Positions 21,794 to 50,628 of a stretch of 64,000 nt of DNA are shown here, piece after piece. A program made the translations under genes and the position numbers. Under the pieces are notes generated by a model. The model saw nothing but the letters and a program-made list of their open reading frames with translations. It ran no database searches and was not told where the DNA came from. Source of the DNA: Membranihabitans marinus (GTDB lineage Bacteria; Bacteroidota; Bacteroidia; Chitinophagales; Saprospiraceae); contig NZ_JAJQYA010000025.1 in NCBI RefSeq assembly GCF_021729155.1, forward strand, positions 1 to 64,000. The letters run 5' to 3'. Within the stretch, counting starts at the first letter, position 1, and the number at the start of each line of letters is the position of its first letter.

Positions 21794-21842
21794 ATCAAAC
21801 ATCAAACATCAAACATCAAACATCAAACATCAAACATCAAAC
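21794..21842 (+). repeat. Heptanucleotide tandem repeat (ATCAAAC)7
   Basis: Seven perfect copies of ATCAAAC start 5 bp after the A of an ATG (21789). Seven is not a multiple of three, so each gain or loss of a copy shifts the frame. With the present seven copies the ATG leads to a stop at 21861-21863 after 24 codons. With 2, 5 or 8 copies the ATG would join the lipoprotein frame and complete a normal signal peptide. This is the classical layout of slipped-strand phase variation. Confidence 0.9.
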
Positions 21843-21856
21843 ACATTAGTGTTTGT

Positions 21857-48704: not shown

Positions 48705-49043
48705 ATGTCAAATTAACTTAAGTAATAAATATACTAAATTATAATGACTTGTTGAGATGGTTTAATGAATTATTATTTTTATTTTATGTGGAAATGCAGT
48801 GTATTTTACTTGTTGTGAATAGTCTTTAATGCAGACTAGCTTTTCCTCACTCAACTTCTATTTATTTCAGAATTTTAGACTTTGAAATTTTTCTTTTACT
48901 AAATTCTTATGGCTAGTGGATGGCCTTGACTCCATAGGAGTTTAGTTGATTGTCCATAAATTCGAGACTCAAGAGAAATTAAATATTTTGTCCTATTTCC
49001 ATTGAAAATATCCGTTAATCCTATATGAGGCATTTGTAGAAAA
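48705..49043. other. Intergenic region upstream of tandem repeats
   Basis: AT-rich, no credible gene. Around 48980-49035 there is a partial, degenerate likeness to the 180-bp unit that follows (AATATTTTGTCC..., AAATATCCGTTAATCC). Confidence 0.4.
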
Positions 49044-49560
49044 AATATTCCATATTTTCCTCCATTAGGAGACGATGGCATCTTCCCTATGTCAATAAAT
49101 ATGAAGTTACTCAACGGTTATTATCCGTTATTAACGGTTAACTTTATTTTGGTGGTTTAAAGTGTTGTTAATCAATTTAATGAGATGTTGTGTGTTAATC
49201 AAATATACATTAGTTAAGGAAAGAATATTCCATATTTCCGGTTCATGGGTGATAATGGCATCTTATCCATTACAATAATGCATGAAGTTACTCAACGGTT
49301 AATATCCGTTATTAACGGTTAACTTTATTATGGTAGTTTAAGGTGTTGTTAATCAGAATTATGTGGCGTTGTATGGTAATCCAATATTTACTGTTGAAGG
49401 TTAGAATATTCCACATTTCCCTTCATGAAATAATACGGTAAACTTCCAATATAAAGAGATATGAAATTCCTCAACGCTTATTATCCGTTGTTAACGCTTA
49501 GGATTAATTAGATAGCATAAGGTTTTATTAATCAACAATTTATGGTCTTTTCTATTCTGC
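49044..49560 (+). repeat. Three tandem copies of a 180-bp unit
   Basis: Units start at AATATTCC(A) 49044, 49224 and 49405 (periods 180 and 181). Each holds, about 67 bp in, the compact core CAACGGTTATTATCCGTTAT followed by TAACGGTTA (cores at 49111, 49292 and 49471), with AACGG/CCGTT inverted words, then a GTTGTTAATCA-like segment. Copies 1 and 2 are closest; copy 3 is more diverged (CAACGCTTA). Frames across the unit are broken differently in each copy, so it is not coding. Confidence 0.9.
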
Positions 49561-49581: not shown

Positions 49582-50628
49582 CTAATGCTCGGCATCGAAA
49601 TAGATTTTGTAAAACTTTCTCCCATCTTCATCCTTGCCTTTTTCTATGAGGCGACGATCGCCATGTACATAAATGTGGAAGTTTTTATCCAATTTTATGA
49701 TACTCTTAAACACTTTATTTTGTTGTTTAACCGCTGCATTGGAGATGGGAAAACTATCTTCCAACTGAATATTGTTTTCTTCTTGGTATTCACTGACATA
49801 TTCTTCAAAGGCCTGTTGGACCTGGGGCTCTTGAAACATTTTTTCCTGATATTCGGTCTGACTAAAATCTTCTGACTTTTGGAAAAATTCCTTGGAGCGA
49901 TGCATTATGGCTGCTTCTTCACTCTTGTCAATTTCTTCCAGTGGCTTAAGTCGTTCATCGACAAAGGATTTTGTGATTTGAATCATTTGTTTGGTTTGGA
50001 AAAAATCATTGGTTTTGGGAGTAAGTCCTAGAAAGTGTTCCTTCCAATACAAAGCTTCTTGACCCCGATTGGATCGATCCAATGACAGTACCTTGAATCC
50101 GTGTTCTTCGTCAGTATTGAATATAAGGGCAGCCTTGTCAATTTTGTTGAGGGCAATGCCCATGTCTTGATTGATATCTGCTGTTTTTTGATCCCAGTTC
50201 ATAGTGAGAAACAAATCTTTGTTTTCAGATTTAAAGATAGCAATGGCATCTATTAATTCGTCATCTACCAGAACATCGTGTAAGTAAGCTATCAAAAGAT
50301 CACCTGATTTAATGTTGGGGTGGGCAGATTTTTCATATAGATAACTGGCTATAGATATCGATGTTTCATGGAGTAAGTCGGGATCTTGAAATATCTTTTT
50401 TGCATATTGAAATACGGGGTTGAGTTGGACTTCTCCATTGTTAAAAGTGAATTGGTGAAATTCTGGCGTCTTCCAAGAATTAATAAAATAGGTCAATAAG
50501 GCCTGCATGAGATCGGCATCATCGATGTAAATGCTGGATTCAGAATATTGAGCCAATTCGTTGTCGGCTTTATTGCCTATGTAGTGGATGGACAGTTGTG
50601 GAACCGTTGCTTCGCTGTAAAATATCAT
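49582..50628 (-). CDS. Nucleoid-associated protein (NdpA/37-kDa family)
   Basis: The 348 residues match the plan of the 37-kDa nucleoid-associated family, here in its Bacteroidota form: an N-terminal VPQLSIHYIGNK start, a middle with SGDLLIAYLHDVLVDDELIDAIAIFKSENK, LNKIDKAALIFN, ALYWKEHFLGLTPKTNDFFQTKQ, and a helical C-terminal half with FVDERL. Family members bind DNA loosely over the chromosome; the exact role is unclear. The gene overlaps the end of tex by 4 bp (ATGA), so the two are coupled. Confidence 0.9.
   Translation of the reverse strand: MIFYSEATVPQLSIHYIGNKADNELAQYSESSIYIDDADLMQALLTYFINSWKTPEFHQFTFNNGEVQLNPVFQYAKKIFQDPDLLHETSISIASYLYEKSAHPNIKSGDLLIAYLHDVLVDDELIDAIAIFKSENKDLFLTMNWDQKTADINQDMGIALNKIDKAALIFNTDEEHGFKVLSLDRSNRGQEALYWKEHFLGLTPKTNDFFQTKQMIQITKSFVDERLKPLEEIDKSEEAAIMHRSKEFFQKSEDFSQTEYQEKMFQEPQVQQAFEEYVSEYQEENNIQLEDSFPISNAAVKQQNKVFKSIIKLDKNFHIYVHGDRRLIEKGKDEDGRKFYKIYFDAEH

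Follow-up and report, generated by a model that had tools for sequence, protein, structure and literature searches.

Several described systems rely on short DNA sites that are repeated in arrays or clusters. RctB is known to bind iterons, and iteron arrays are represented by those of RctB on Vibrio chromosome 2 and those of plasmid Rep proteins. In parS/ParB-like site clusters, the cognate gene stands beside one cluster and further clusters are located elsewhere. A third type of array is formed by the attC sites of integrons, for which an IntI-specific additional domain serves as a criterion (PMC9668308). Finally, direct repeats of the heptamer TAACTGA are short, intergenic and patchily distributed, occur also in five Bacteroidetes and are possible protein-binding sites (PMC4679880).

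We analyzed a stretch of 64,000 nucleotides of Membranihabitans marinus (contig NZ_JAJQYA010000025.1, here C17), hereafter the window, which contains a repeat array that partly resembles each of these systems. As in iteron arrays, short sites are repeated near a gene whose product has RctB domain 3 as its best, though weak, fold match (Z 5.8); here, however, the arrays are dispersed in the chromosome, present periods of ~97-240 bp and are composed of half-sites grouped in threes. As with parS/ParB-like clusters, a candidate cognate gene lies beside one array and further arrays lie elsewhere, but the protein and the site are different and the arrays were found in some species only. The likeness to integrons consists of a tyrosine recombinase related to XerA and integron types, a hairpin that follows its gene in some loci and attC-like hairpins in one genome. 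In contrast to integrons, the recombinase lacks the IntI-specific stretch (as judged from the protein of one relative, G040), the units of the window contain no listed gene and the repeated core is not an attC hairpin, since it folds no better than shuffled sequences (z -0.65 and -1.03). The TAACTGA repeats are likewise short, patchy and intergenic with possible protein binding, but they are direct 7-mer repeats and the consulted passages of PMC4679880 link no such gene to them. A literature search, mostly of open papers, returned no description of the present arrays or of the gene pair associated with them.

The array of the window spans positions 49039-49560 of the forward strand as delimited by repeat and period detection, with period detection covering 49039-49427 (period 181 bp, 2.2 copies). 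An earlier note on this DNA had described three tandem non-coding units of ~180 bp with disagreeing frames, a conserved segment and a similarity falling from left to right, and all of these features were recovered. Indeed, a 90-nt block representing a single repeat family starts at 49086, 49267 and 49446 (181 and 179 bp apart), copies 2 and 3 are 83% and 76% identical to copy 1, the segment GTTGTTAATCA is present in the units, and none of the listed ORFs of at least 50 aa recurs along with the copies. One 71-aa ORF of the minus strand (48899-49114) reaches into the first unit. The units share a 28-bp core, AACGGTTANTANCCGTTATTAACGGTTA, consisting of three alternating half-sites of ~9 bp (forward, reverse, forward) at 10-bp steps, each following the pattern TAAC(S)G(W)TA. 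With up to three mismatches allowed, this core was found in the window only at 49113, 49294 and 49473, compared to a mean of 0 across 100 shuffles. Core 1 (49113-49140, forward strand) is composed of AACGGTTA, TATCCGTTA and TAACGGTTA, core 2 (49294-49321, forward strand) matches the pattern with 0 mismatches and core 3 (49473-49500, forward strand) presents 3 mismatches, with half-sites 1 and 3 both altered from AACGG to AACGC. The cores are separated by spacer 1 (49141-49293), which has diverged relative to the spacers of other arrays, and spacer 2 (49322-49472), both read on the forward strand. Repeated sites in phase, as in iteron origins, are present in the form of half-sites at 10-bp steps, and no replication initiator gene was detected among the five nearest genes scanned, which belong to the families PF04245, Tex, saccharopine dehydrogenase, HGLS and aldehyde dehydrogenase. 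Elsewhere in the window (21794-21843), the heptamer ATCAAAC is repeated seven times with 100% matches.

Searching the genome for the unit, as had been proposed earlier, revealed further arrays: DNA searches with the array of the window recovered two more places, on contigs C11 and C25. Overall, 14 cores with at most three mismatches are distributed over three dispersed intergenic arrays located between unlike genes, with 8 cores on C11 (steps of 199-201 bp), 3 on C17 and 3 on C25, and the control yielded 0 matches. The stretch around spacer 2 (49285-49480) shares 83% identity with part of the C25 array, and the later C25 spacers, judged by eye, resemble C17 spacer sequence in reverse complement. 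An additional place on C25 (L010:6414-7050) lacks ~20 bp between the first and third half-sites of its core, as would result from recombination between direct half-sites. The core is nearly invariant while the spacers drift. Between the arrays of this genome, mean identity reaches 0.92 for the cores and 0.42 for the 60 bases 3' of them (57 pairs, ungapped). Departures from the consensus amount to 0/168 core letters and 53/1026 outside letters in six 199-bp units of C11, and to 1/576 and 153/1725 in an array of the relative G440; these tests treat letters as independent, whereas copies within one array are not.

The earlier note had also raised the possibility of tandem small RNA genes. Folding offers some indications in this direction: five of 24 folds have z < -2, two of which are overlapping stretches of C17 unit 2, and the strongest (z -4.21) involves an odd C11 spacer. 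In addition, a promoter box follows one of the eight C11 cores and lies on the opposite side of four of them. We nevertheless regard small RNA genes as very improbable. No low-z fold was observed to recur among the copies, the window has no Rfam match at the gathering score, and the box TAnnTTTG is absent by all cores of C17 (3/3, those of the window), C25 (3/3), G440 (26/26) and G438 (5/5).

In G040, the core is flanked on one side by a tyrosine recombinase gene and on the other by a divergent gene encoding a cysteine-rich protein of ~125 aa. M. marinus has a relative of this cysteine-rich gene (57% identity), hereafter the partner gene, and the start of that gene is ~230 bp away from where the C11 array begins. 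The partner gene exists in two forms, one common and diverged, the other close and patchy, the close form being detected in 28 of 100 family genomes (E <=1e-20). Our family alignment search yielded 79 loci, all labelled Bacteroidota except one labelled only 'bacterium'. The protein model (pLDDT 95.5) presents a cysteine-rich start, a long helix at residues 21-57 and a mixed C-terminal domain. Its best fold match is RctB domain 3, with Z scores of 5.8 (rmsd 3.4 over 74 residues) and 5.1, which is weak (Z <8), followed by further weak matches to Stn1 (4.3 and 4.0), CtsR (3.5) and CodY (3.3); sliding clamps and other unlike folds are mixed among the matches at Z ~3 to 3.7. RctB, Stn1, CtsR and CodY share a common winged-helix type. 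Foldseek returned no match against PDB and BFVD at E <=0.001, which is not evidence of a new fold. The treble clef of PF09889 (DUF2116) is matched by 37 of 53 members at E values up to 1 (best 2.8e-6), and one member scored 14.4 bits, under the curated cut-off of 26.8. The median pI of the 53 members is 9.88. The protein is thus basic, and probably of treble-clef/winged-helix architecture and DNA-binding. This protein had no match in phages, two partial matches in viral contigs and four weak matches in plasmids (<32% identity), and one partner protein and one recombinase submitted to PADLOC gave no match.

Half-sites recur upstream of the partner gene. At least two strict half-sites at 9-11 bp were found in 22 of 58 gene-upstream regions, compared to 6/2900 shuffles and 1/1376 other windows (control rates of 0.1-0.2%); the 36 remaining regions failed this strict test. 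Using a looser unit, at least three half-sites were found in 18/58 regions, 0/2900 shuffles and 2/1376 other windows. These 58 regions come from 57 of the 79 loci plus M. marinus, after those with a short upstream sequence or an unclear start were dropped, and include a few near-duplicates, and the half-site pattern itself had been drawn up visually using a subset of these data. The TAnnTTTG box showed a modest excess, with 11/57 upstream regions against 4.9% of simple shuffles. The same motif occurs in three arrays of one genome and beside the partner gene in relatives, which suggests that the cores are probably landing sites for the partner protein. On balance, we lean toward the interpretation that the array of the window is a binding-site cluster, most likely for the treble-clef/winged-helix protein of ~125 aa encoded on C11, where an array of 8 cores adjoins its gene. 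Trimeric half-sites one helical turn (10 bp) apart would allow several subunits to bind on one face of the DNA. Cores located at the partner gene, and at the divergent recombinase of relatives, would probably constitute an operator through which the protein may regulate its own gene, and distant arrays such as that of the window may be extra clusters for the same protein, serving titration, DNA bridging or the nucleation of a complex. Several observations weigh against this interpretation: gene conversion within arrays could likewise keep the cores alike, the intergenic region is often shared with the recombinase, which could itself be the binder, and the fold match is weak. The earlier idea of an iteron-like protein-binding array is supported in its anatomy (phased half-sites, a near-invariant core and recurrence by a predicted DNA-binding gene), but it loses the partner that had been suggested for it, the neighboring nucleoid-associated protein.

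That suggestion was based on the gene at 49582-50628 (minus strand), which adjoins the repeats of the window and matches PF04245, the 37-kDa nucleoid-associated protein. This gene faces the repeats with its 3' end and not with its promoter, and the listed neighbors of the C11 and C25 arrays do not look like PF04245 (as judged by eye and not by profile scan). The protein was found in 8 of 11 relatives searched, and six of these eight are among the 99 relatives searched for the core, of which only G040, not one of the eight, has a core with at most three mismatches. In a comparison meant to reveal an empty site, three other neighbors from the window were tested in ~4-kb stretches around the PF04245 gene of the eight relatives, and none was found. 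It is hardly credible that the arrays are sites for this protein, and the position of its gene beside the array of the window looks coincidental.

Bacteroidales genomes repeat the layout seen in M. marinus, with cores around the partner gene and further arrays elsewhere. Seven of the 79 loci (L195, L197, L198, L200, L207, L209 and L211; six Bacteroidales and one Dysgonamonadaceae) present at least two cores by the gene and no recombinase match in the stretch examined, which covered ~0.5 kb of upstream DNA for L197, ~0.4 kb for L207 and ~3 kb or more for the other five. Four of these loci are regularly spaced (116, 97, 97 and 238 bp). When ten genomes were searched with Bacteroidales cores, seven matched (0 control matches), and further core places were found elsewhere in G437 to G441, the genomes of five of the seven loci. 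These include 26 cores over 2.6 kb on contig C97 of G440, at distances of 95-97 bp and with a run of N inside, and 5 cores at 96-97 bp on contig C203 of G438. Across ten such stretches (L269-L278), a copy of the partner gene was absent in seven and present in three. Among 12 genomes, the upstream region of the genome's own partner gene was the best match for four of five arrays tested, although these regions may themselves contain array cores. The match is thus 4/5 and not 5/5, which also counts against the partner protein as the binder; the exception is the core on G438 C203, which is closer to G440 (27 versus 21 of 28). A more ambitious scenario, which we hold to be possible although unlikely, is that the treble-clef/winged-helix protein, carried along with the integron-like recombinase, seeds several chromosomal arrays of phased trimeric sites and assembles on them into a chromosome-organizing or partition-like complex, with the letters of the site co-varying with the protein by lineage. 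If the arrays are indeed sites of the partner protein, this would give a widespread protein family that has no name both a target and a role open to testing, connect a class of so far unexplained Bacteroidota tandem repeats to a factor acting in trans and link an integron-like recombinase to its likely regulator.

The frequent presence of the recombinase suggests an alternative in which this enzyme uses the core for recombination or as an arm site and the arrays are small non-coding cassettes inserted serially at the core. In 52 of the 79 loci, the opposite strand upstream of the partner gene contains a recombinase match within the stretch examined, often but not always adjacent and sometimes >1 kb away. 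The six 199-bp units of C11, similar to one another, are bounded by two cores with mutually similar outer neighbors, as if they had been inserted at a core. Dispersed cores of G105 carry a fragment from the 3' end of the recombinase, and G302 carries core elements among attC-like hairpins and small genes. Related recombinases were also present in all 13 genomes searched when distant Xer-like matches are counted, including array genomes with no recombinase at the array, a point that weakens the case for the partner protein. The best E values elsewhere in the genome were 5e-68 (G437), 3e-48 (G439), 6e-56 (G442) and 1e-63 (G443), and 2e-26 to 8e-33 in G438, G440 and G441. The cores of G105 and G302 and the recombinases of array genomes keep this alternative alive, yet we judge it rather doubtful. 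No recombinase match was found for the five multi-core loci with ~3 kb or more of upstream DNA, what comes nearest to the close recombinase in M. marinus consists of broken pieces, the two intact matches there being 28-32% identical, and the core folds no better than shuffles. Moreover, several recombinase genes have a hairpin at their 3' end, which is a likelier crossover site: by eye, several of 23 folded downstream stretches show a hairpin ending in GTTA or GTTG followed by an ORF. Further copies of this hairpin in 21 loci were unconvincing (best in L203, 23 bases on the opposite strand, E 1.7e-4). The recombinase itself most resembles XerA/integron types, although it scores below the curated cut-offs (190.9 bits for TIGR02249, cut-off 265), and the G040 protein, the only one compared, has 19 residues where IntI4 has 62 in the IntI-specific stretch. 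In L132 (G302 contig C283), four attC-like hairpin repeats of ~60 bp (146-206, 982-1042, 1678-1735 and 2446-2505) alternate with small ORFs of one strand, including two that on visual inspection resemble a toxin-antitoxin pair, and three copies of the core-bearing or a related element are also present. In M. marinus itself (L081:2031-5404, contig C43 of G000), genes matching the AbiL defence pair (AbiLi and AbiLii) are neighbors of a broken recombinase relative.

Across 100 genomes searched, M. marinus included, the core with at most three mismatches was detected only in M. marinus and G040, and no arrays were found in two genomes of the same genus. Absence from close relatives and the lack of a conserved core had been named earlier as signs of neutral tandem duplication. 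The first was observed in both same-genus genomes, but the core is strongly conserved where present, and of the partner gene these two genomes carry only the diverged form (32% and 35% identity), not the close one. Neutral satellite DNA, generated by tandem duplication and unequal exchange and devoid of function, would fit this distribution and the duplicated, diverged spacers. We find it improbable: in separate arrays, and also in a Bacteroidales genome, the letters of the core are kept whereas the spacers drift, and half-sites recur upstream of one gene family.

A degenerate pattern of three half-sites was found in 43 of 398 family genomes, compared to 7 for the reversed control. Several genomes, e.g., G105, G242, G177 and G408, have a core version of their own on several contigs. 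Sites were located <1 kb from a contig end in 17 of 40 chosen contigs (7.2 expected), as expected of repeats that break assemblies. Only 20 of the 43 pattern genomes, a heterogeneous set that includes simple 10-mer repeats, carry the close partner gene (E <=1e-20), which argues against the partner protein as the binder; among the 100 genomes searched for both, the gene was found in 7/11 pattern genomes and 21/89 others (Fisher p 0.01). Similar 10-bp repeats without a close copy of the partner gene were found in G242, G408, G048 and G137. The exact core pattern had 0 matches in a genome-contig collection and 0 in viral contigs, collections that may exclude the records of M. marinus itself; the shortened Bacteroidales core matched 20 viral contigs, once each. 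Repeats of 10 bp with the sequence GTTGATAACGG were observed in L119, L120 and L121 (G408) and in L134 (G048), where the partner gene match is absent, and those of G408 form large inverted repeats. Finally, G154, G279, G313 and G340 contain long head-to-tail runs of the 10-mer AACGGATTAG, with 66 matches on each strand in G154.
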